The notes under the pieces are model-generated. The model did no database searches and was not told the DNA's origin. It saw only the letters and a list, made by a program, of their open reading frames with translations. A stretch of 64,000 nucleotides of DNA. It comes from Auriscalpium vulgare (lineage: Eukaryota; Basidiomycota; Agaricomycetes; Russulales; Auriscalpiaceae). Positions 2,125 through 17,264 of this stretch are shown here, one piece after another (the first letter of the stretch is position 1; each line of letters begins with the position of its first letter). A program made the position numbers and the translations under genes. The stretch covers positions 248,001 through 312,000 of the forward strand of contig JAHBBC010000026.1 of NCBI GenBank assembly GCA_019915015.1. Reading direction: 5' to 3'.

Positions 2125-2401
2125 GAGCGCAGCTCTCTCCGCCCCTCCGATCGCATTTGACCCGCACCACCACGCACGCCCTCGTCCCCACGGCATACGC
2201 CCTGCGCTCCTCATCCTGCCCTTTCCTCAAATTCGCGCGTACTTGACCCGGGTGCGCATGGCATCAGGTCTTCAGCAGTTGCGCGGGTCCTTTGTGTCCC
2301 TTGAGCCGTGGTGCGCAGTCGTTTTGTGATACACTCGTCCCGCGTGAAGCTGGCGCGCTGCCGCGAACGCAGGGCGCAAGAGCCTGCACCGTGTATATAT
2401 G

Positions 2402-2406
2402 CTGAC
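2402..2406. repeat. target site duplication, left (CTGAC)
   Basis: CTGAC directly precedes the left terminal inverted repeat and recurs directly after the right one at 16969-16973. A 5-bp direct duplication at both edges is the footprint of a transposase-mediated insertion. Confidence 0.8.
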
Positions 2407-2449
2407 CCCCAGTGAGAAACCGGTCTGGCCCCATATGCCCCAGTATGCC
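2407..2449 (+). repeat. left terminal inverted repeat
   Basis: Begins CCCCAGTGAGAAACCGGTCT. The first 22 bases are identical to the reverse complement of 16947-16968. The match then continues imperfectly through a TATGCCCC(A/G)GTATGC block shared by both ends. Confidence 0.85.
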
Positions 2450-2770
2450 GATTTCTGCACGTGTGGGGCCGTCAGACCAGGTCAGATAAAGGCACAAAAT
2501 CTGGACTTTTGTATGACAGAATCTGCCATTTTCTGCTTCGTTGTCATGCGATAATATGCACCATTATGCCGATTTCTGACTCCTTATGAATACATATGCC
2601 TCCAGATGCCATTCCAATACCGTCCGAATTTTGCATACCATGCCATATGGGCGCATACAGAGCCATCTGCGCCATTCCCAGCCACCTGCCCCGCATCCGC
2701 CGCAATCTGCATACCACGCCAGATGGGCGCATATGGAGCCATCCCACTCACCTGCCCTGCGTCTGCGTCC
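2450..2770. repeat. left subterminal repeats of the transposon
   Basis: 'atgccgatttctg' occurs twice (about 2446 and 2566). A unit of about 75 bases (gcataccatgcc...gggcgcata...agccat...cacctgcc) is repeated in tandem at about 2630-2704 and 2706-2766. Repeated short motifs just inside the terminal repeats are the usual transposase-binding region of CACTA-like elements. That role is inferred here. Confidence 0.6.
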
Positions 2771-2865
2771 CGCGCCCACAGCCCGCCCGATCGCTAAGTC
2801 GTTCGATAAGTCGAAAGTCAGGCATTGTAGGCAGACAGCGTACCATTCTCCCGCAGCCGGTGAGC

Positions 2866-5430
2866 CTACGTGTTGTTCTTCTTCTCCTTCTCCAAGGCTT
2901 TAGCTGCCTGGCTCTCCTGTTCGAGTCGCTGAGACAGATGCATCAGTAGAGGACCGCAGACTGAGCAAGTAGTATGCACCAAGCGAGTTTCTCCATCTAT
3001 GCCATCAAATGCCTTCTGAAACTCGTCGTTCGTCATTTTCGGATCGCGTATCTTGCACTCTTGCATGTATAAATTTCTTGTCGTTGATGCTCTCAGCTGC
3101 GATACATCGAGCACAGCACAGAACTCACCGGACGGTGTTGGATGTCTTGCTGGGTTTGATAGACTTGTCGCCTGTTGCCTTCGCTTGGCCCGCTGTGCTG
3201 ATAGACGCACCGGGAGCGGTGGACGGCGCACTGCCAGACGCCTTGGAGGAGCCTGATTGATGCGAATGTGAGCAGGTAGATGCAGAAAGTGCCCGTAGAC
3301 GCACCGTTTGTAGCGTTTTGAGGTTTACCTGACCGTTTTGAAGAACCTGCATTGATCGAACTGTGAGCAGGAAGACAGAGAGCACTCGTAGACGCACCGG
3401 ATTCTGCTGGAGGGGCCCATCTAGAGACCGAGTCCGTTGCGCGTCCCGGAAAGAGGTCCTTGCTTCTTGGAAAGCGGTATTAGCAAGGAAGCGGAAATTG
3501 TGGCAATATGACACTGACAGAACGTTCACAACCTGCCCGAGTAAGCACGTGCATGTCGTGCTGCGGTCAGCAAAGAAAAGAATGTCAAGTCGGCGATGGA
3601 CTTACTTCGATAGGTGCAGCCCGCTTTGCAACGCTGTCAGTAGAAACGGCCGTCATCCCGGCTTCCCTGGCCGAAACGTTGCTATTGATGAGAGGAGCGA
3701 CAGGGCTGCCACCCGTTAGCACGACGTTGATGCTGCCAGCAGGGGTGGAGGGCTCGATAGTTGTCGTGTTGCCGAGGCCGCTCGTCAAGGCAGTCTCCGC
3801 AGGCTCAGCATTTTTTGTCGCTGTGCTGGCGAAACCATCATTGACCATGTTGCTCGCGCATGTTGCGTCGAGCGCTGCCGCTGCGGTGATGTTGCTAGAT
3901 GTGATGGGGGTAGCTTCAGATCCGTTGGCTGAGGAGGGCAGCTCGGAGGTGCTGGACGAGGCCGGTGTCGCCGGGTTATCATTTCCACTGGTTGAGGACA
4001 AAGGTGCGGATCTGCTTGCGGCCAAGAGTGAGCTATAACAAGCAGAGACAGGTAGATACTCACGCAAAAGAATCCGTAGCATCCTTCAATGCTGCAGACG
4101 ATGGATCAATAGCCTCCGCAGGGCCAGCCGGTGCGGCGGGCGGCGCTGGCACTTCGCTGAATTCCACAGACGCTACGAAAGATGCATGTCAAAAGCTCAG
4201 CCAAGCGACAGTTGGTTGCGACGTACCTGCTGGAGCGTCGCGTTTATGACGCTTGCTTGAGCCAGCGCCGGTAGCAGGGGCAGGCCGCTTGCTGCTTGTA
4301 GCGACTTGCTGTGAGGCTGGCGCAGCGTCCTCTGCGGAAGTGCTTGGCTTCGATTTATTGCGCCTCGTCTTCTTATACTGGGGGTACTGCTCTGTCACCA
4401 TCTTATCGAGCTTCCAGTGGCCCCGGCAGAGCCTCAGGTACGGAGCGTCTTTGTACAGCCAGTGCCTGGCTATGTTCTGAGCTTCCGGAGATGCGGAACC
4501 CCAGGTATCAGGCGCGATATTGCGAGCAGCGAGTATCTGGAAGACCGTCTTCATCGAGTGCCTGAGGTCGATGACATCCTCGTCGTTGATAATGCTACCA
4601 TCTTCTCGCTCGAGCCAGGGATAAGCAATGTCGCTAGCTTTCTTGCCCGTTAGATTTGCGCTGTTCTTCTTGGCAGCCACGACAGCCTCGTATTCCTTCC
4701 TCCGCCAGAAGCGGACGCTGGGATAGGCATCCCTCTTGAGCTGTTCAGGAAGCGGGGCAGTCGAGTAGGAATTAATCATGTCCTCATAAGACGTCGGCGG
4801 CGCCGTTGAGCTGCCAGGCAGAACAAGACTGGCCCCAGGCGTAGCAGTCGACGAGGATCGAGAGTATTTCGGCACCATCGATGTAGTCAGATCCTGAGAA
4901 AGAGTCATCCTGCACACATAGTACGGCCGCGTATCAGAGAGGATGGGATAAATGAACGGCAAGATCACATACTTGAGCATCACAATGTCCGCGCGCATTT
5001 CTGCTACCTTCTCTTCAAGTCTTGCATGAGATGCTTGTAAGTCATTGTACGCTTTGGCGAGGGTGTGGTATTTGTCGATCGGCATGACTTGGGTGCCCTG
5101 GAGCGCAGGGCCAGACGCGGTGAAGGAACGTCTCTCGACCCGCTCGTTTCGCTGCGTCACAGCCAGGGTATAGAAGTTAGTAATACGAAAGGCCATAGAG
5201 TAGCAATTACGCACCGCATTGAACTCAAATGGAAGCTCCAGAATGGGTGTCGTTGAGCCACTGTAGTATTCTCGCTCATGATATGCTTGTGACAGGGTGT
5301 CGACGGCAGGGCTAGATGACAAGTATCGGACAGGAGCTCTGAAACTGTCGCCTAAGTCAAGAGAGAGCTCTGGAGAGTTGGATTCGCGTGAAGAAGGAAA
5401 GGAATCCCCCAAGTCCAGAGGTTGGTCCAT
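2866..5430 (-). CDS. transposon cargo protein of unknown function, multi-exon
   Basis: I do not recognise this protein. It starts at the ATG at 5430 and is clearly spliced. Exon 1 is 5215-5430, exon 2 4973-5151, exon 3 4227-4909, exon 4 4064-4172 and exon 5 3606-4032, all with GT...AG introns that keep frame. Two or three short 3' exons between 3605 and 2866 are less certain. The start contains a repeated LDLGDSF motif (residues 5-11 and 24-30). A coiled-coil-like stretch follows near residue 100, then a charged region with a WRRKEY motif and a basic nuclear-signal-like KRHKR. The exon 4-5 part is very rich in Ser, Ala and Thr. The end has a CSVCG motif and a Gln/Glu/Lys-rich helix. It is divergent from the gene at 5667 (236 bases between starts). 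Its place inside the transposon suggests an element function, possibly DNA- or chromatin-related. Confidence 0.65.
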
Positions 5431-5666
5431 AGCTATGTTGCCAGCAGGTCGACGATGGCAAAGAGAGAGGCCGTCAAGTGGTTGGGGACGACAAGAGGCA
5501 AGTGACGTAGCCGATCGCTACCTCGCCGATGCGAGTGTCCCCAATCATGTGATCGCGTGTGCCCTCTGCACTTGTCGTGCGCGTCTTGCGCTTCTTGCCA
5601 TCTCCGCACTTCTTCCTCTGCTCACACCACCTCCTGCGCTTCCTTCTCTGATACTCGGCTACAAGG

Positions 5667-6548
5667 ATGTCCTCTAGAGTCAGTCATTCCGGTTGCTTTT
5701 TCATGACATGCTGCTGATTTCCTGGCATAGGACGCCTTGGAGTCTGTCGAAGTGGTCATGCAAGGGCATGGCAGCGTGGATGTCATTTACAGGCCAGCAT
5801 CGGTGGGCATTGGTGCGGTGAGCTCTCTTTCATCTTGTTATTAGCTATCGTTCTCATGTTTTTTAGCATATACGCTTCCAGTCCATCGCGACAGCATACA
5901 GCTCGTCGGAGTCTGCGCAAGCAGGCTCTTCACCCGTCCAGTCTGTCCACTCCATCCCGACCACCCCCATCCGCGAAGCTTCCGAACTCCCTGCCACCGC
6001 TGCAAACGCGGCTCCATCGCCCGGTCTCGCGCCGGCTTCACCAGCAGGCAGCCGAGCCCCATCCCGGAACCCCGTCCTGCCGACTAACACCGTTAGTCCT
6101 CCCCCGAGCAGCCACACCGAGGAGTCTACACCCGTTCACTCCACCAACATCAGCCCCACTCAATCCAACATCGCCCAGCCGCCTGTACGCGCGCACTCGA
6201 CGCGTCTTTCCAGCCCCTTCGACGTCGGGGTGACCCAGTTCCTGGAGGGTAACTTCAGCCTCCCCGACGTCACTCACATGCCCTCCAGCGTGCGCAGGCT
6301 CATTGAGGAGCCGGACGCTGCGTTGGACTGGCGCAGGAAGTCCCCTCTTCCGCGCCTGCAGCTCCACACGCCGAGGACGCGTGCGGGCCCATCCAGACGC
6401 AGGTGAGTGTGCTATTAGCATAGACCGTTCGCTCGTTTTCCTGACACGGTGTCATAGGGACACTGAGCCTGGGCCTTCGCGCTCAGACGCCGAGTCGCCT
6501 TCACCTCTGGCCAAGCGGGCTCGTGTGGACTCGAAGAAAAGGGCATGA
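5667..6548 (+). CDS. transposon cargo protein of unknown function, 4 exons
   Basis: I do not recognise this protein. Splicing is well supported: exon 1 5667-5678 (a four-codon microexon, MSSR), exon 2 5731-5817, exon 3 5867-6402 and exon 4 6458-6548, giving about 241 residues. Exon 2 encodes a compact, probably folded N-terminus (SVEVVMQGHGSV). The middle is a long Ser/Pro/Thr/Ala-rich disordered linker. A conserved-looking acidic/basic patch with DVTHMPSSVRRL follows near residue 170. The C-terminus has a bipartite nuclear-signal-like tail (AKRARVDSKKR). It is transcribed away from the 5430 gene, so the two share a 236-base promoter region. It looks like a DNA- or chromatin-associated adaptor, but that is a guess from composition. 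Confidence 0.65.
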
Positions 6549-7434
6549 AGAAGGGTAAAAATTCTTGTACAACAAACATCATGTAAACTACATGATATGC
6601 ATCTCCATGAACAAAGACATGCCTTCCTGAAGACTGGTCTGGATTTCTGCTTATCAAAAAGCTATAACCATGTAGATTGCAGGTGAAAGCGCATTGAAAT
6701 CTCATCCAGCAATCGCCTTAGACCTGCGCGATGTCATACTTAGTTTAGAGGGCACGATAGCAGCAGCTAGCAGCCGCTTATGCGTCAGCGCGCGCACTAT
6801 GCCTGCGACCAGGCGACCCGCGCGCGCGCGCGCGCAAACACGCACTGCGAGGCAGCGACGGACCAGTCCAGATGAACAGATAGGCGGGCCATGTCGTCGA
6901 GTGAAACGCACCGTGCAGAGAAGGCGCGCGACGCGTTGGGCACGTGCCGGCGGCCACGTCTTTGTTGATTGTTTGTTGATTGTCACACCTTTCGTGTGAC
7001 CTCGTCACTGTTCAAAACCGCGCCTCCACCCTCCTCTTCCTGCCAGCACGGTTGCCTCGCCAGAAGCGCGCTCAGCTTGAGCGGGGCGCCGTGCACCACT
7101 CGTCTCTCTTATACGCCCTCCTCTACCTCACCCGCCTACTTGGTTAGCACTCCGGTGAGTCAAGCAGCAGCAGCAGCTCCGGGCTTCTCCCACTGCCCGG
7201 AGCTGCCGGCGCATTTTTTCTTCGCGCCGTGCGGGGCCCGATTCCACCTCGCACGGGCGCTTTCTCCGCCTCTCCGCGCACGGCAGCAGGCCGCGCGCCG
7301 CAGGACTACGCGCCTCGGCGCGGTTCCACCTCTGCGACGCGTTGCCAGCTGGCAGCACACAGGCGCGCAGCCTCTTCGTTCGCGACACAACCCTGCCTTA
7401 CTGACTGCTCCGCGCATAGCACCCAGCCCGCCAC

Positions 7435-7770
7435 ATCCATTCTCCCAGCCCTAGCGCGTACCCCGCGTACTTCCCCGCGCCGCATGCCCCGTACTCGCGA
7501 CCGTACCTCAGCCCCACCGACGACTACGCCGCCCTGTTCGCCCCCACCGACCTCCAGGCCTCCGAGGCGCGCTACCGCCGCGCCCTAGCAGAGCTGCACG
7601 CCGCCGAGAGAGCGCGCGAGGCGGCCGCGCGGCTCCACCAGCGCGAGGCCGCGGCGTTCGACCGGCAGCTCGAGCAGCTTGCCGTCCAGGCCCACGCGGA
7701 GCAGGCGCAGCGCGAGCACGCGCTCCGGCTCCACCGCGAGCAGGAGAGGCAGCGCAGCTGTGCAGGGTAG
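7435..7770 (+). pseudogene. coiled-coil protein fragment, Ala/Glu/Arg-rich
   Basis: In the frame that ends at the stop at 7768 the sequence reads a Tyr/Pro/Ser-rich lead (AYPAYFPAPHAPYSRPY). A run of about 80 residues follows with regular Ala, Glu, Gln, Arg and Leu spacing (RYRRALAELHAAERAREAAAR) that looks like a long helix. The pattern of a Tyr/Pro-rich head followed by a charged Ala-rich helix is seen in basidiomycete BAG-type and small heat-shock-like proteins. I see no domain beyond the helix, no clear start codon in frame, and a stop soon after the helix. It is probably a captured N-terminal fragment. Confidence 0.35.
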
Positions 7771-7839
7771 GTCGGTAGATGCTGACTTGCGCTTCCGCCC
7801 CTACTGTCCCCGCACGCACCGCGCCACCCGCGCGCACTA

Positions 7840-7945
7840 CCTCCTCCGCACGCACCGCGCCCCCTGCCCCTCGCACCGTGCCTCCTGCCCCTCGCACACC
7901 GCCTCCTGCCCCTCGCACACCGCCCCCTGCCCCTCGCACCCCGCC
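7840..7945 (+). repeat. 18-base tandem repeat, five copies
   Basis: 'gcctcctgcccctcgcac' and close variants follow each other about five times. The array follows the coiled-coil fragment. A short segment after it can be read as KWLNGIYDKNVNNEG, whose origin I do not know. Confidence 0.6.
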
Positions 7946-8131
7946 ACCAAGTGGCTGAACGGCATCTACGACAAGAACGTCAACAACGAGGGCGTCACGT
8001 ACCACTGTGCATGTACCGTACTTATATCACACCATCCGCTTTCTGTCTGTTACCGAGGTGTCCAGTGTGCTGCTTTTAGTTATGAATACAATCAGTGTCA
8101 TGAGATGTAAAGTGCTGCAAGATCTCTGCGG

Positions 8132-9000
8132 CTACCCTATGGCAGCCCGCGCGACCGCTGGAACTGAACGCCATGTTCTGCTCGAGCCCATGTTCTGCTC
8201 GAGCGTCGGCCCGTTCAACGGCTCGGGCACGGCGCTCGGCGGGGGGCCTGCGACCGCGACGGGCGCGTCATCGTCCCCGGCGCTGGTGGACACCTGCGTG
8301 CTGCTCGGCGACGCGGAGCGCGAGGTCGCAAAGTCGGCCATCTCGACGTCCGAGTCGGACGAGACGGCGCTGGAGGCGGACTGCGTGCCGAGGAGGAAGA
8401 AGCGCCCGCCCGAGTGCGCGACGAGGTTCTCGTAGTACAGCTGGAGGACCTCGCGCGTGCACTGGGGGCGCGGGGGAGGTGTGAGCAGGCGCGGGCGCGG
8501 GAGGAGAGGGGGTGCTGGCCGTAAGCCGCCAGTCGATCGCGAAGAGGAACTCGCGCTCGAGGCGCGCGAGCTCGTGCGTGGTGATGCCGCCGATGCGGGC
8601 GTAGTGCGCGTTGGCGCAGAAGGAGTCGCAGAGCGTCTTGCTCGCGAGCGCGACGGCGGTGATCGTGAAGCGGTGCACGGTGAGCGAGGACACGACGAAC
8701 GTCGGCACGCGCGCGCAGATCTGGTCGATGTAGTGCATCGCGGTGAGCAAGCAGGTTTTCTGCGCGGGGGCGGTCAGCGGGCGGGTGAGGGCTGGCCGGG
8801 CGGGCGCACCTCGACGTTGGTGAAGCGCACGATGCGGCGGAGGTACTCGAGGACCCTGATGTGCGGGACCGAGGCAGAGTGGAGGCGGGAGATGCCCTCG
8901 CTGCAGCGCACATCGCACGTCAATCAGGCCCACACACCGGCTAGAGGACAGAGCGGGACGCACGGAGACAGCGGGATGCGGTCATTTATCGAGAGTCTTG
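8132..9000 (-). pseudogene. Pho80-type cyclin, 5'-truncated fragment
   Basis: Cyclins of the Pho80/PCL group bind Pho85-like kinases in nutrient and cell-cycle control. Reading the minus strand, conserved blocks appear in order: NDRIPLSP (about 8960-8987), SRLHSASVPHIRVLEYLRRI, VRFTNVE, then MHYIDQICARVP, VVSSLTVHRF, CDSFCANAHYARIGGI, LEREFLFAIDWRL and REVLQLYYENLV. The last leads into a Ser-rich tail with a stop at 8132. Introns lie between these blocks. One after VRFTNVE has GT...AG ends. The one after DWRLT would need a GC donor (gccagc), with a correct AG acceptor. The start of the protein is missing: the homology begins abruptly at about 9000, where synthetase sequence takes over. It is therefore a broken captured copy, although much of the cyclin box is still readable. 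Confidence 0.75.
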
Positions 9001-9004
9001 CTCG

Positions 9005-9975
9005 TCTGCAGCACGCCCGCGGGCAGCCCTATAGGCTTCGGGCGGTAGCAAATCGTCGCTGCGCGGCCGTGGAAGAAGGTGGGGTCTGGCGTGGCGAGTC
9101 AGCGATCAGTGATCGTGCCGCGACGGAGGGAAATGAAGGAGGAGAGATTGACCGGGCCGCTTCTTAAGGCAGTAGCCCGTCTTCGCCTTTGCGTCCGTGC
9201 TCGCGATGCGCGGCACCTCGAGCATCGCCGTCGCGCGGTCGAGCAGCCCGTGCACGGTCTCGAAGCCCGCGTGAACACGACGTCTGCAGCCTCGAAGATG
9301 CGGATTGGGAGCGCAGGCCAGCGGTTCTCGCGCATGGTTTTGAGCAGCCCCGGGAGCAGCGACGTGCGCACGACCTGGAACTCGAGCGTCTTCGGGTTCG
9401 CGATCTTGACGGCAGTGTTGTTGGTCTTCGACGTTGCCAGGCGAAGTTTCCCTCGTGTTAGCACTGCACAAAGCGGGGAATCAAGCCGGCAATTATGTGG
9501 TAGGGAGACGACGCGCCAGGATCAGCGGGAGGACCTCGACCCTGCCCGCGCTCGCCCACTGGTGACGGGTGATGTCGATCAGCTTGCTCACCGCGAGCGG
9601 CTGCGCGGCCGTGCTCGTCGTCGGGAACGTGTCCGGGAGGTTGTTGAAGCCATACACGGTCACTGCATCCTCCTTGACGTCGCACTCGTGCAGGGTCGGC
9701 CGCGTCGGCGGGATATCGACCGTGATCTCGTCCGGGTCCGTCGACGACGCGCGGCTGGGCAACGACATCTTGCCGAGGAGTTTCTGCACGTCGGGCGTGG
9801 ACAGCGTGAGGTACATGATTTGACGTAGGACCAGGACGTGTGCGCGGGGGTCGGCCACGAGGAGAGGTCGGGTGTGATGACTGTACGTCGGTCGGGGTAG
9901 GTGGTTTTAACAGGCTCGGTCCTGTTCGCACATGAAACCGCATCCAATCCACCCTGTCCAGCCACTGCCACTGTG
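9005..9975 (-). pseudogene. phenylalanyl-tRNA synthetase beta subunit, internal fragment
   Basis: The cytosolic enzyme charges tRNA-Phe. Blocks typical of its beta subunit are read in several frames on the minus strand: [138 protein letters not shown] and FFHGRAATICYRPKP. Defects are clear. After VLPLIL the intron donor is GC, and the codon following the acceptor (tgc tcg in a working gene, by inference) is tgc taa. A one-base shift follows near 9440. A segment between VVF and the GLLDR block is missing and the frame changes there. The C-terminal domain stops at the junction with the cyclin piece. It is clearly a pseudogene and cannot be the cell's working copy. Confidence 0.85.
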
Positions 9976-10367
9976 AACCCCCAAGTCAGTATTCCTCATT
10001 GGAACTCAAAATAGAGAACCACAATGCGTACCTGTACATTGGAATGCTTTCTGACAAACATACGCGAGCGGGCGGCGTTGCTGCTGCTTCACCGACGACG
10101 AGCGAAGGTTTGATTACCGACATCCGTGTGATGCAGAGGTGTCGCGGTGTGAGCACTGAGTGCGAGTGCGGGTGAGAGGCAGATGCAAAAGGCGGTGCCG
10201 AAGCGGCGAAGCCAAGATCTCACCTACGGAGCCCGAGATCTGTGATAACGATCAGCTGCGGGTGCTCGACATCGTCTGTTCCAAACCTCGTCCGAGATCT
10301 ACAGGTAAGGGCGTGCGTTAGTACGAGGAGTTGCTGAGCTGACTACGACGCAATCGGCAACAGGAAG

Positions 10368-12714
10368 ATGAGCCACATGGGGCTAGACCAGGCTGCCAAA
10401 GACACAGTGCCTCCTGCGGTGAGTCTTCCTGCTTTGCGACGCTAAAATTTGCTGACGCAGCTGGATCGCCTAGGGAGCCTTGTCCCTGTCAGTCACAACG
10501 CCTTGTGACATGGACGCATTGCTAGATCTCTACATGGAGGAGTATCGAGACGACGAAGACATGGCTTATGTCTCCGATCAGGCCGGGCTTCGGCGGGATC
10601 TGCTTACTTTCCACGTCCATGGGCTACATGAGGATGCGGAGGAGGAGCAGAAGGTTGAAGATATGCTCACGGGAAGTGACGATGGGGAAATCGACTGGGT
10701 GGAGTCGGAGTCGGAGGGATACGATGACGAGGGCGAACTGTTAGGTGCGCTGTGAACTTTCATAACATTGAGCCTTTCATTTTTACTTGCCTTCAGAAAA
10801 TGACCTAGAAGTCCAAAGCTGGGTGGCTTACCAGGAAGACGGAGAGCTGGATGCTTCAGAGGTGGCCATTCCCTTTTGGGATGAGGACCTGGAGCCTGGC
10901 GAAATATCTGAGGAGGCCAGTGAACCCCCAGCAAGTGAGGCTGGTGACCCTGTCACAGATGAGGCAAGTGACTCAGATGAAGAGATGGTTCAGGTAATTT
11001 CTTGGTTGCCTCAAATATTTTTCTGCTCACATGCTCTCCCACAGAACCCTAAAGGCTTTACATATACACAATCTAAGGGCCGCCTCATTGTTCCCTTGCC
11101 CAAAGTCTCTTGGAAAAATGCCCAAACTCAGTGAGATCTTAGAACCTATTAACTTCCTGTCAAATTTACATTTTAATTCCTTAGATTGGCTGTTTCCACC
11201 AAGTGCAGTGCTCCTTTGCAGCCTGGATCTACATCTGTGGGCTTCAAAAGGAAGAGGACCAGAGGTACAGCTTCCAGCAAAAGATTCTGGGATAATAAGG
11301 CTCTGGAAAACATCAACAAAGGGTCTAATCCCCTGAGGCAGAAAAGGCTGTGGGATCGCAGCCTAAAGGGTCCTGCTATCCAGATCCAGTCTTTCAATAT
11401 TCTGACAGAGGGATGCTTCTCTAAAACTGGCTGGCAAGGGACCCCTCCCCCACCCTTGGTCAGGAAAAAGATAGTTTCTCTATATCAGAGTGGGGAAATC
11501 TTCTCCCTCCTAGGAAACTTTCTTCCTCTTCCCTATCACCCAGAGCCCAGGTACTGTACTTTTGTCAAAGTCCTTGCCTTTGGAACTGATAGCATTATCT
11601 AGTAAAACAATGTCTCTTTGGGTCACAGACAAGAACCAGCATCTGTTTCTATACAGAGCATTTCAGGCCGACTGGTTAATGGAGCACAATGACTTGCTCT
11701 GGGCAGAGTTTCTCAAGCTCTTAGCGCATGAGCTGGAGAATCCCAGGACTGAGAAAAAACACAGGAAGGGATCTAGGGGCCCACATTTTGCCTGCATCAT
11801 TGGCTATTATAGGCAGTCTGCAAAGGTGAGCTGATCAAAATCGAGGTATCAAGTAATTCACTTACACCTCATAGCACCCTCAAGTAACTCAGTGGCATAG
11901 GAAAAATCAGGACAGAGTGAATTCCTTTGTGGAGAGCCCTTTGATAGAAAGAATGAAGTAAGCAAATTAATCTGCATACTTTCAGAGGTTAATAAAAGCC
12001 TAGTGCATTTGTCTCACATGTTGTGGGGCTGGCCTTCCCAGGTGTCAAGGAGAGATCAGAAAAATCCTCAGCATGGTTCAAAGCTACCTATGACATTGAG
12101 CCTCACTTTGGGCTGTTCTGGAACCTATGCATCAATGGTTGCTTTTCTGGCATGCCCAGGATTCATTGCCTGCCTCATGCAGATGCCAAGAACCCAGTCA
12201 GTGTCTGTGCTCTAATGGTATACCTGAAGCCAGGCTGTAAGTCTTGACACCTACTGTTTTGTCATTAGTTCTCACAATTGCTAGCTAAATTCAACCACAC
12301 CAAAAGATCTTGGCTGGTAATCTGGGAGGCTGGAATCATTATTGAGCTGCCCCCATGGGTGCTGCTTATATATCCCTCCTCTCTATTTTATCACTTCAAT
12401 GTTGATATCTCAGGTAATAGAGTCTCAACTTGTATGATTTTCATACTGATTTGCATAATACAGACATCAAATTTGTCACAACTGAGAATGGAGAGCAGCC
12501 TACTCTGGACAATAGCAGGCCCATAGAGGATGGTGATGAAGAAGGCAGAGGCAGTTTGGTCTGGTTCAACATGTCCAGCATGTTCCAGGCATCAGAGACT
12601 GGTTTCTCTACACTGAAAGAGGCTAAAGCAGCAGGGCACTCTGGAAAGGCAGATGCTCAAGAGACAGCAAAGCAGGCATTTGCAAAGCAGGCAAAGTTTT
12701 TTCCTGTAGCTTAA
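10368..12714 (+). CDS. 2-oxoglutarate/Fe(II) dioxygenase-like protein (TET/JBP-like)
   Basis: This is a spliced gene starting at the ATG at 10368 (MSHMGLDQAAKD), with about ten short exons. Well-supported introns follow 10418, 10744, 10993, 11825 and 12413. The region around 11530-11640 is less clear. The N-terminus is strongly acidic (residues of exons 2-3), followed by a basic stretch (GFKRKRTRG). The C-terminal part looks like a jelly-roll dioxygenase. It has FGLFWNLCING, then HCLPHADAKNP with an HxD iron motif near 12165, then WLVIWEAGIIIELPP and YPSSLFYHFNVDI with the candidate distal histidine near 12400. The same order (HxD, LVxWxxxxxIxxPPGxxxxxPSxxxxHxN) is found in fungal TET/JBP-type 5-methylcytosine oxidases. 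The gene converges on the transposase with 145 bases between stops, and is T-richer than the host block before it. Oxidation of DNA bases is inferred. The alternative is a catalytically dead derivative. Confidence 0.65.
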
Positions 12715-12859
12715 ATACAAAGGCGACCCCTTTAAGCATGCCACACTTGAGTAAGGTGGAGGGGGGACCAGAGAACAATCAGATAGGAATGAAAGGGTTG
12801 TTGACATAGTGCAGACTGAATAGTAGACTCAATGAAACAAGCCTCAACAAACTGTACAG

Positions 12860-15800
12860 CTAGTCATCATCCACAACCTCCTCCACAATGCCATTGTAGA
12901 AAGCCATCTGTGCACCAGGCTTCTCCACAAGATGAAACCTATCCTCGCTGTCCTGAAAAGGCACCATAGCTACCACTGTGATGATGTCTTGGACAGGAAT
13001 AACTGCAAGAGCGTTGAGCCCATGGTAGGTGCTAACTGCAAGGGCACCGCTGGACTCGGCCAAGAGAAAATCATCGGGCAGCGAGAATAGCGAGACCATT
13101 GCAAGGTGCTCATCGTTGATTCCGGGGAAATAGTACCGGACCTCGGCAATTCTAGTCTGGCCGTTGAATGTCACCTGTAGTCTTGTCAGCATAATCCCAG
13201 AGCAGGATCAATGTGAACAGCTTACTTGGACCATTCTCGCCATCCTAAGGTGCTCCAGCTCTTTGAGGGACTCCTTCCACCAAGACCGCGCAACTTGCCC
13301 ATTCGGAAGACGCAGCCTAGCCCACTTGATAACTCGAACAATATCCGGGCCCTGTGCATCCGGGCGATAGCGCTGCAGGATGAGTCGACTTTCCACTGGG
13401 CTGACTACTCGGAAGCAAGAGTCCCGAGCGCGAAGCAGGACATATCCGCTGCCTAGATCAATTGCACCATGGGGTATTGAAGTGCGCTGTGGGGCAAGTT
13501 CAGGAATGATAGCATAGAGGGCATTGACTTGGGCGAATCGGAGCGCTCGCTGAGCCAGATTGGCGTAAGGCTGGGAGGGCTGCTTGATCTCTGCACCAAG
13601 AAGCCCAATGATTCGCTCCAGCGGCCATTGCGTGTAGTCAACCAGTGGCCCGACTCGAAATGCTTCGGGCACTAAATGCGCCAGGGAATGAATGCTCTGC
13701 CGGCAGAAATGAAGGCGTTCCGGCATCCGTTGATAGTACAGCTCTTCGTATTCTCGAGAGAACTCGACGAAGAGAATGTGCGCTCGGACCAGCTGGTCTC
13801 GAGGGATCTTGTATTGGTGGATGATGCGCATACCGGAGACGAGCTTGCAGTAGTGTTTCCAGTATTTGTCGGGGAGAATACCATACAGCAGCCCTGGCCC
13901 CAGACCAAAGATATACAAGAGATATTCCCAGGCCTTGTAGCCACTGGAGATCTTCTCTGCAGGGTTGCGCGGCGGTCGGTCGAAAGATCCAGGGAGATAG
14001 GGCGTGGCATCTGCGACGGCCTTGCCATGCTCTATCCAGACGTCGCCTTGGAGAACGGCCCAGTCCCAGGTGGCTTTGTTGTCCCCGCCCTCGCACTCCA
14101 GCAAGGCCCGCCAGAGTTTCACCAAGAGTTCTGGGATGTTGATAGCACCCAGATGCATAATGTCAAAGGGATAGCCCAGAGGGAGAGGAAGACGTGCATG
14201 GGATGGAAGGCCGTGAAACAGGCTCGGCTTGGATATACCGGTCAAGAGGCGACGGCGATGATACTGGGTCACGTTCGGAGACTTGATGACTATTTGCAGA
14301 TTTGTGCGATATTCTTTGGGGTCAGGCGGGTGGTCGATGAGGGCGGCGACATCGATGTCTGGATGGTCAGAGCCAGCAACCTGATAATTCGTCGGCTTGA
14401 GGAGTGCAGGGTAGTATGTCGACTGCTGAAACCTATGTCGTCCTTTGACAGGACAGTAGATCCGACAGCCTCGTGCGCCGTTGTGCGGAACCCTTCCATC
14501 CAGCTTGGACAGTCCCGGACGGTCCGCAGTAATGAAGAAACAGAATGGTTTAGAATTGTAGACACGATTTGATGAGGCATCCCAGATTCCGATGCCTTCT
14601 CGCTGAATCGCAGATAGATGGTGGAGGCCGGGGTAGTTGAATGATTCCATGTTTTGAGGGGGGTTCGGACCAGGAAAGACAGCACCGGGGATAATGTGTC
14701 TCCTCTTGTAACGAAGACCAGGAGACAGGTCAAAGAGGACCCAGATAGCGATCCAGCAGTCTGACTTCTTGCTGCGATACAGCTGTGCGCCGTCTATTGA
14801 GAACATGACCACACAGTCGTCGGGACCGATGTCGCCACGCTGAACCGCCTTGATGTAGTCAGATCCGTGGACGATATCTTCATAGGAAGGAATGTTGCCT
14901 TCGTTCTCCGCAATCTCCGCCAACACCTCAGCCGTGCGTCTGTCGAGATAATGCATGTTGTCAGCGCTTTCAGGGCTGCGGAATAGGGCTTGGAGTGAAA
15001 GGCCGAGGGGAAATGTGTAAAACTGCTGGCGCGGCTCTTTCTTCTTGCCTCCGCTTTTCGCAAGCTTGCGGGGATCGTAGCGCGGCTGTCCGCAGATGAT
15101 GCAGGCTTCCAGGTGCGCCCATGGACCAGTATATGCCATGCAGGAGCCGACGCACGAGTCCCGGACAATGGCCTCGACGCCGCTTAGATCGCGCACGAGA
15201 GCCTTGACTCTGTAATATGAGAGTAGGTCGTCCTCAGGATGGGCCAGACGGATAGCGGCGCAGACGTCATGGTATGCCTGTTCGGAGGCATGCGTGAGGG
15301 CGGCGAATATCTGGATCGACAAGCGGTGTCCGGGATCGTCAACAGAGGCTGGGGTCTGCACTGGATGCCGTATTCGATGAACTATGTCCTGCTCGAGTCC
15401 GTCATTCTCGAGAGTGGCGTTCTTGATGCCATGGACAAAGCGCAACACCATGTCGATCTCCGGTATAGCACTTGTCTGTGGTAGATCATCGTCATCGGGA
15501 GGGACGTCCTCCTCGATGGGAAGCTCTTCATCTTCAAATTCATCAGGCAATGCTTCATCGACGTGCTCGGGATGCGGTGGGGGGATAGGGACAGGAATGG
15601 GTGGCGTGAGGTAAAGGTCGTCTTCGTCATCTTCATCCTCTTGCGGTCTGGTGAGGCTGCCTGAATCTGGTTCAATATTGCCCTGCCGGAAGGATTAGAT
15701 CATCCTGGGATGCACAGCACGAAAAAAGACTTACAACAATTTCTTCCACCGGAGGTGTTGCATCATCCGCATTGCCCTGATCATCTAGGCGTGCCCAGGA

Positions 15801-16483
15801 CTGCTGGGCTGCTCGGAAAGTCAGCATCGATACGGATGTATGTTATACATTGTAGCATACCTTCAAGTTCGAAATCATCGACCCGTGCGGTTGCCTCGAC
15901 TGAGGCTTCGGTCAAGTGCCCTCCTGCATGGCTGTTGGCATCTTCGGATATGCGTTCACCTGCAAAACTGTCAGTTCCCTAACGTTTATAGGGCATCAGA
16001 CCCAAGCGCACCTTCAAAGTCTTGCACTATCTCGTCCTGAGGCTCTGTCCATAGAGGGTCACTGTGCGGGCTTTGTTCACGCATGGGCGGTGTCTATGCA
16101 AGTTCATAGCATGTCAGGCTCGACGGGCTTCATAATGCATAACTGCCACGCACCAGTCCCGAATATATGCTCGTATCCTCAGCTGGTATGTCTTCGTGTG
16201 ATTCGTGTGCGGAATGCTGTGTGTTTTGATGAGGACTCTGTCGTGAGCCGCTAGCAGGCCCACTCACCTGGGAAGTGGACCCTTCCCCAAAGACATCGGT
16301 TCTCCTTCGCTTCCGAGGTGCAGGCTGCCCTACTTGGGTCTCCAGGTCTCGGTATTTGCTATGTGCATGGTAGGTCGACTTGGAGACCGCCTTGTAGTGA
16401 TCGCCACGACAGTACCGCAGACAGCCACAGTAGTACACAGCCGCAGCTCGTTGGCCCGAGCTCCCAGTAGAGGTTTCGGCCAT
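12860..16483 (-). CDS. Tnp2-like (CACTA/CMC) transposase, 7 exons
   Basis: This is the enzyme that cuts and pastes the element. Exons in order are 16268-16483, 16154-16216, 16012-16093, 15861-15959, 15735-15808, 13226-15682 and 12860-13174. All phases agree and give about 1101 residues. The start has a Cys/His zinc-binding motif (CGCLRYCRGDHYKAVSKSTYHAH, split here as CGC..YCRG and TYHAH). It is followed by a basic nuclear signal (PRKRRR) and an acidic region. The core has VVMFSIDGAQLY and SDCWIAIWVLFDL, then GLHHLSAIQREG, ADRPGLSKLDG, GARGCRIYCPVKGRH and FDIMHLG, which are hallmark blocks of Tnp2-type transposases. Next comes SIHSLAHLVPEAFRVGPL with YTQWPLERIIG, as in the DUF4218-like part. 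The last exon (RIAEVRYYF, IPVQDIITVVAMVPF) is the usual C-terminal module. No stop or frameshift is seen, so it may be active. Confidence 0.85.
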
Positions 16484-16549
16484 GGTACGTCCCGCAGAGA
16501 GCTATGCAAACACGCAGTGCGGAGAGGCCGCCAGGACGAGCGTCAGATG

Positions 16550-16770
16550 GAGGCGCACGACGGGGGCAGAAGCGGCTATGCGCAGGCGACACGGAGCGGC
16601 GCAGGGCAGCGCAGGCAGCAGCGCAGGCGACACGGAGCGGATTTGGCGGCGCAGTCTACACGGAGCGGCGCAGGGCAGCACAGGAGACGCGGAGCGGATT
16701 TGGCGGCGCAGGCGACGCGGCGCGACTTTGGCAGCGCAGGCGGCGTGGCTTTGGGCAGCACGATGCGCGC
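16550..16770. repeat. right subterminal direct repeats of the transposon
   Basis: A unit with 'cacggagcggcgcagggcag' followed by 'gcggatttggcggcgcag' occurs twice (about 16590-16650 and 16660-16713), with further partial copies. The array lies between the transposase start and the right terminus and is the counterpart of the left subterminal repeats, though with a different sequence. Confidence 0.6.
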
Positions 16771-16925
16771 GAGGTGTCGAAGCGGCAAAGCAGCGCCGTT
16801 GCAGCGAGGCAGCGGCGCTGGCGCTGGGATTGTGCTAGTCTACAGTACATTTGCGGCGACGACGCGCGCTGTGTCTACGTCACGGGGTCGCATTGCGCAG
16901 ATGGATGCACATTTCTCCCGACCTG

Positions 16926-16968
16926 CGCATACCGGGGCATAGGGATCCAGACCGGTTTCTCACTGGGG
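16926..16968 (-). repeat. right terminal inverted repeat
   Basis: Read on the minus strand it begins CCCCAGTGAGAAACCGGTCT, identical over 22 bases to the left end at 2407. It is followed directly by the CTGAC duplication. Confidence 0.85.
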
Positions 16969-16973
16969 CTGAC
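16969..16973. repeat. target site duplication, right (CTGAC)
   Basis: Second copy of the 5-base sequence at 2402-2406. No extra bases separate it from the terminal repeat. Confidence 0.8.
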
Positions 16974-17264
16974 CCCCGCGAGCCTATCTCCGTAATGGTA
17001 CCGTAATCACTTCCAGCGGTGCGCGCCGTTCGCGCTTTCGTCGCTGGAAATTACTGTCAGGCTGACGGATCGATGGAGCAGGGCCCGGGCGCGACCCTGC
17101 GACACGCCCTGAATGTGCCGCGACGGTCAGGCTGCCCTGGCGCGTCCGCCACTTGTGCGCAGCTGCTGCTGCTGTACTACTTACTCACTCTGCGAGAGTG
17201 CTGGTGCCCGGGGTGCTTGCGTGGGATGCGCGCCGGCAGGGCGTTACGTGTAGTTGAATGTCAG

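Follow-up and report, generated by a model that had tools for sequence, protein, structure and literature searches.

A recently mobile Tnp2-type transposon of Auriscalpium vulgare with 7-bp target-site duplications and an apparently imported TET-like gene

We have analyzed a window of 64,000 nucleotides from the basidiomycete Auriscalpium vulgare (GenBank assembly GCA_019915015.1, contig JAHBBC010000026.1), which is C26:248001-312000 in an assembly of 51.6 Mb and 96 contigs (C-numbers designate contigs; coordinates without one are those of the window). At 2408..16967 it contains a complete transposon of 14,560 bp. Our analysis indicates that this is a real, recently mobile element of the Tnp2 type, with an unusual 7-bp target-site duplication and a TET-like gene that is under selection and was apparently imported. 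The most likely account, judging from the sequences, is that this gene passed recently from one transposon superfamily to another, into the cargo slot of a Tnp2 element that was itself active in the recent past. The ends, the copies, the duplications, the layout that related elements on C4 and C8 have in common with it, a paralogous empty site for a relative and the varying DNA of the slot can be read directly from the assembly, and the recent mobility of the element appears well supported.

The element ends in inverted arms of 42 nt each (2407-2448 and 16927-16968) with 90% complementarity. Its terminal letters are CCCAGTG at 2408 and CACTGGG at 16967, the same border as in other copies, and the outermost pair of the arms (2407/16968) is a coincidental flanking C that lies outside the element. 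An inverted-repeat scan and the comparison of copies place the terminal inverted repeats at 2408..2448 (+ strand) and 16927..16967 (- strand). An initial annotation of this DNA had described inverted termini with 22 identical bases and a CTGAC duplication at both edges. The inverted ends stand, the figure of 22 counts the one flanking C and the borders become 2408/16967; CTGAC is part of the true duplication, the 7 bp GCTGACC at 2401..2407 and 16968..16974. The subterminal repeats that it reported were found again, as direct repeats of 44 nt (84%) at 2624-2667/2700-2743 on the left (2624..2743, + strand) and of 19-50 nt units at 16580..16724 on the right (+ strand). As a separate observation, the right end of the window element matches its own left end perfectly over 21 bases; the copies on C1, C7, C20 and C57 have in common the right-end variant ACCGGGTTTTCACTGGG, from which the window deviates at 16956 and 16959. 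A conversion between the two ends is possible.

The first 299 bases of the element as first reported had matches at five places with 99-100% identity. There are two full-length copies, the one in the window and another at about C1:2773616-2788169, identical at 99.84%, with 15 mismatches and 8 gap bases in an alignment of 14,561 columns. Besides, we found three close copies with a shortened or altered structure (C57, C20 and C7) and nine relatives with paired ends. The C57 and C20 copies are 3.2-kb units that retain only 2408-2939, 12718-13051 and 16135-16967 and thus lack most of the transposase, and the C7 copy is a 19.8-kb unit containing the same retained parts. A scan with the end sequence, allowing at most one mismatch, gave 27 genomic places versus 1 for the reversed control, and a diverged version of the end gave 4 versus 0. 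From the 31 ends of both scans, 28 form 14 pairs and three are single (C12, C4:298,522 and C16). A perfect 7-bp duplication flanks 14/14 paired copies: GCTGACC, AGTCACT, ACTGAAG, GCTCAGG and ATTAAAG in a first set, CCTGAGG, CCTCAGG, CTTGAAG, GATGAGA, CGTGAGT and CTTGAGG in a second, and GCTGAGT, TCTGAGC and GTGTAAC in the remaining copies. Position 5 is A in 14/14 and position 3 is T in 13/14, with C19 as the exception, and the pattern NNTNANN holds in 13/14; this motif, whose frequency in the window is 0.040, was picked post hoc, the first 12 duplications all having T-N-A. The single ends on C12 (GCTCAGC) and at C4:298,522 (GCTGAGA) match it and that on C16 (GTTCGGC) does not. The second full-length copy and the duplications bear out the initial annotation in its view of a single mobile unit; the search of the assembly by the ends that it proposed did find further copies, so a lack of them does not speak against it.

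One relative element, at C4:1682503-1693504, sits inside a short relative, and at that point the uninterrupted relatives on C33 and C13 have a single CCTGAGG. We read these as a paralogous empty site for the C4 relative element. In a different case, C19:876143-949574, matching diverged ends lie 73.4 kb apart, both with the duplication GTGTAAC; the DNA between them contains a transposase close to the right end, a dioxygenase match (898,254) and, at 911 kb, pieces that resemble window 7271-8005. This would be either a giant unit or a set of nested insertions. The C19 unit gave no reverse transcriptase matches in the 150 candidates scored out of 293, a result that is uninformative since only about 0.2 were expected by density.

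The transposase gene (12860..16483, - strand) has six exons (16483-16154, 16093-16012, 15959-15861, 15808-15735, 15682-13226 and 13174-12860) that code for 1118 aa in frame without a stop, so that the earlier statement of a defect-free joining is right in all but its number of exons, seven. The match to Transposase_21 (PF02992) is above the Pfam cut-off (33.2 bits versus 28.6, E 3.8e-8) and agrees with the Tnp2-like transposase proposed initially; no other Pfam family matched at E <= 1, and the link to the KDZ group that had also been mentioned finds no support for this transposase. For residues 300-900, 7992 candidates were scored and 1049 of them were homologues at E <= 0.001, the best being 64% identical and from Auriscalpium vulgare. 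The named protein neighbours among the matches listed, for this protein and for the dioxygenase, come from fungi that we take to be Agaricomycetes. We aligned 16 sequences, the window protein and 15 picked from 120 listed homologues. The acidic residues D, D, E and the motif H-x3-H are invariant in 16/16, in agreement with the D, D, E and H(3-4)H of the CMCT type, and the putative catalytic residues are among them. The sequences have C-x3-C in 16/16 and not the C(2)C that follows the second D in CMCT. For this clade (CACTA, Mirage, Chapaev, Transib and Plavaka), C(2)C and target-site duplications of 2-5 bp are given in the sections of PMC12730594 used here, and the 7 bp found at all the paired copies fall outside that range. 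The CAC..GTG termini and 3-bp duplication of CACTA/EnSpm differ from the CCCAGTG..CACTGGG and 7 bp of the element, and its ends do not show the features of Plavaka either (TGT or CATCA termini, 2-3 bp duplication). The Plavaka domain, pfam18759 as used in a passage of PMC8290104, did not come up at E <= 1, the presence of this model in the library not having been checked, and KDZ gave no match at the same threshold with the same limit on its model. From the features of KDZ/Kyakuja the element has the 7-bp duplication and departs from the absence of terminal inverted repeats, with its 42-nt arms. Because C-x3-C and the 7-bp duplication deviate and Transposase_21 is the sole match, we regard the element as Tnp2-type and file it under neither CACTA, Plavaka nor KDZ. 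The window, C4 and C8 elements form a patchwork of similarity, which suggests recombination among families: at C4 the core of the transposase is 97-99% identical to that of the window, yet its first 170 residues are 42% identical, and at C8 the end of orfB is 97% identical in DNA, yet its main exon 66% in aa.

These three elements have in common the layout orfA-orfB-[slot]-transposase, and the DNA of the slot varies between copies. For orfA (4227..5430, - strand) the gene model consists of a first exon of 401 codons, with later exons uncertain; its relatives have about 61% aa identity at C4 (with indels and one stop in the alignment) and 34% at C8, and there was no Pfam match, nor did any of the 7996 candidates scored reach E <= 0.001 as a homologue. 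For orfB (5758..6548, + strand; exons 5758-5817, 5867-6402 and 6458-6548) the start codon is one of several possible. It had no Pfam match, and its relatives are 92% identical in aa at C4 and, across the main exon, 66% at C8; the end of orfB at C8 has 97% DNA identity to the window over 194 bp. The C8 slot contains other DNA, with no dioxygenase match, and two stretches of it gave no Pfam match. Four genes had been assigned to the element as its own, which has to be corrected: orfA, orfB and the transposase are common to the relatives, but the block with the dioxygenase (6684-12719) looks imported, since a near-identical gene lies next to a different transposase at C11 and C95 and the slot at C4 contains another dioxygenase.

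The TET/JBP-like dioxygenase gene (10510..12714, + strand) has nine exons (10510-10744, 10797-10993, 11045-11130, 11185-11555, 11629-11825, 11875-11957, 12004-12236, 12285-12413 and 12464-12714). The metal triad HxD...H and the following R are present, in PHAD, YHFN and GRGS, and in the alignment of the family H434, D436 and R526 are nearly invariant and H490 invariant. The HAD of the window protein differs from the HxE of the PE-type TET of Kojima. A homologue 42% identical to the window protein has a TET-type fold as predicted by a structure model, and a search of the PDB by sequence alone returned no dioxygenase. The coding sequence is under purifying selection.

Dioxygenases of this type have five strong loci in the assembly, on C26, C1, C11 and C95 and, diverged, at C4:327-329 kb. 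At C11 the gene and that of an rva_4 transposase (PF24764, integrase-core, E 4e-64), which we take to be of the IS3EU type, are in convergent orientation. The junction at C95 is the same, with 461 bases of the rva_4 gene and then other DNA, and at C4:327-329 kb a dioxygenase with 69% DNA identity is again convergent with rva_4, the frame of which is cut short as read. The dioxygenase genes of these donor-type loci at C11 and C95 are near-identical to that of the window element, at 96%. Meanwhile, the sister Tnp2 element at C4, with a transposase 99% identical over 2.8 kb, carries another type of dioxygenase at this position, oriented as in the window, and nothing in it matched the host-gene fragments of the window. 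The dioxygenase of the C4 element has a weak Tet_JBP match (E 0.03, below the cut-off) and a profile match to the window family at E 2.4e-9 in a single comparison. An exon of the C4 type had 103 genomic matches at E <= 0.001, a number of which are parts of the same locus. This is a large expansion, so that the type in the window element is the less common of the two.

The junctions tell how the cargo block, here called U (6684..12719), is placed. U has TG...CA ends and appears to have been imported, and inverted within the family. It is bordered by F1 (6614..6683, + strand) and by F2 (12720..12859), the DNA downstream of the transposase gene. F1 is inverted at C11 and C95, where it adjoins U at the end with the dioxygenase and the rva_4 frame runs into it; on C57, C20 and C7 it is the other end of U, inverted, that meets F2; in the window and C1 the order is F1-U-F2 with U in the other orientation. 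The simplest account would be that U was inverted once, at its dinucleotides TG and CA. U also contains a stretch with partial matches at many genomic places (6996..8005, 75-97%) and two host-gene fragments on the - strand. The first (8002..8992) derives from a cyclin gene (PF08613; relative at C28:398912-399985, 94-96%), and the cyclin piece in the C95 copy is 96-98% identical to C28. The second (8995..9945) contains a tRNA-synthetase B5 domain (PF03484; relative at C21:64316-65333, 88-89%) and is presumably a piece of the PheRS beta chain; it lacks 67 bases that stand in open frame in the C21 relative. A loss of introns through RNA was considered for the captured pieces and finds no support, given this open frame. 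A simple nested transposon was rejected for U, because its ends have only TG/CA in common and lack a duplication, and because an inversion accounts for the junctions seen at C11/C95 and in the short copies.

Taken as a whole, we consider it highly probable that this is a recently mobile Tnp2-type transposon of the cut-and-paste kind, with 7-bp duplications mostly at NNTNANN, whose cargo came from an rva_4 neighbourhood and was later inverted. The cargo would have originated in a locus with a dioxygenase beside an rva_4 (IS3EU-like) transposase, and the dioxygenase may have arrived together with or next to the captured pieces of host genes. It would then have come to occupy the slot that contains another dioxygenase in the C4 sister element, and would finally have been inverted at the TG/CA dinucleotides. 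The donor locus, the arrival, the replacement of the C4 type and the inversion are supported rather than proved. We infer that the dioxygenase oxidises methylated bases on the DNA of the element, relieving its silencing, that orfA and orfB aid transposition, and that the pieces of host genes are passengers. A broader possibility, that we offer tentatively and with some doubt, is a separate Tnp2 lineage with 7-bp NNTNANN duplications that acts as a cargo vehicle, its fixed slot between orfB and the transposase being loaded again and again with TET-like genes of other transposons and with host pieces, and its units being at times very large (C19).

Several observations weigh against this interpretation. 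The evidence on the fold comes from the 42% identical homologue and not from the window protein, which by sequence matches no dioxygenase family. The dioxygenase of C1 lacks one T in a run near the gene end, and for that of C95 the coding alignment shows gaps of 6 bases in all. An empty allele of the window site was searched for in the same assembly and none was found, the interrupted C4 copy contains a further 0.9 kb or so of DNA that stops some 19 bp left of the junction, and partial end matches on C3, C53, C6 and C12 yielded no pair. The best inverted-end pair in C11:309,500-325,500, at 316,378-321,183 (13/16 end bases, 7-bp flanks GCGAGAG), encloses only the dioxygenase and the rva_4 gene. 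It was picked post hoc, shuffles gave a 7-bp pair in 0/20 and a 6-bp pair in 1/20, and as the ends of a donor transposon it is an unconfirmed candidate, unlike the published ends of IS3EU; a general scan at C11 for inverted ends with 2-10 bp duplications had no TAYGG..CCRTA with 6 bp among the 25 rows listed. Finally, the first 31 bp of F1 are also present in the C8 Tnp2 element, so F1 alone cannot fix the direction of the transfer and may not be purely rva_4 sequence.

That last point is what favours the reverse route, in which the Tnp2 element would have passed the dioxygenase on to the rva_4 neighbourhood at C11/C95; no dioxygenase match was found in the C8 element, and C11/C95 might then hold a Tnp2 remnant. 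We consider it unlikely: no Tnp2 transposase, orfA or orfB is present in C11:311,800-320,469 or C95:1-7,505, the scan of C11:309,500-325,500 yielded no Tnp2 end, the third and diverged dioxygenase at C4:327-329 kb is also convergent with rva_4, and the slot of the C4 sister element holds another dioxygenase. A role as mere passenger for the dioxygenase, to which the captured host-gene pieces in the same block lend some weight, seems to us quite improbable given its purifying selection, as opposed to the 67-base loss in the PheRS-like piece, and given that no separate host locus was seen, the five strong loci being either part of this element or neighbours of rva_4 sequence. A third alternative, an ordinary CACTA/EnSpm or Plavaka element with its own inherited TET gene, as published for Agaricus, would agree with the Tnp2-type transposase and with the TET-bearing EnSpm and Plavaka families described in part of PMC12730594. 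Nevertheless, the duplications are of 7 bp and not of 2-3 bp in every paired copy, the termini are CCCAGTG and not CAC, TGT or CATCA, Transposase_21 is the sole match and the sister element has a different dioxygenase, which makes this reading very unlikely indeed.

TET-bearing transposons have been reported in 11 lineages, with transfer between superfamilies, and an anti-silencing role of their TET genes is deemed likely there, without experimental test (Kojima 2025, PMC12730594, in the sections used). Those of fungi resemble the window element as DNA transposons with a TET/JBP-type gene, and differ in duplications of 2-3 bp (Plavaka) and 3 bp (EnSpm) instead of 7 bp. The same sections give a single pair between superfamilies with more than 70% DNA identity (about 80%), whereas here it is 96% and the junctions and the inversion can be read off. 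Kyakuja (KDZ) has in common the 7-bp duplications and the TET cargo and is described there as lacking terminal inverted repeats, which are of about 41 bp here and accompany a Tnp2-type transposase. With CACTA/EnSpm and TRC (SmTRC1) the likeness lies in Transposase_21 and in the CCC-type termini of TRC, such as CCCAGTCAAC in an Aedes element, against direct repeats of 2 bp in place of 7 bp (PMC1636069, in part). A hAT element with histone H3, from the part used of PMC6710886 on fungal transduplication, likewise has host housekeeping sequence on a DNA transposon; it belongs to another superfamily, and here there are two host-gene pieces beside a conserved enzyme gene. In the open-access publications covered, PMC12730594 was the only one to turn up on 7-bp duplications. 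According to its sections used here, transfer of TET-like genes between fungal superfamilies has been inferred so far mainly from trees of diverged genes. Since donor-type loci, recipient, sister element and junctions share one genome at 96%, the route of the transfer and the selective value of the gene can be put to the test. With their T-N-A core, the 7-bp duplications would serve to recognise a Tnp2 lineage outside the range published for CMCT, and the element illustrates how mobile elements may exchange tools against silencing.

Two minor observations concern the surroundings of the copies. The C7 unit has direct repeats about 11.5 kb apart and a weak similarity (67-69%) to window 33.5-40.4 kb, and perhaps carries an inserted retrotransposon. 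The right flank of the window element (16968-17005) recurs at C2, C26:369,474, C8:1,399,806, C4:45,635 and C37 with 90-95% identity, so that the insertion may lie on the margin of a different repeat family.

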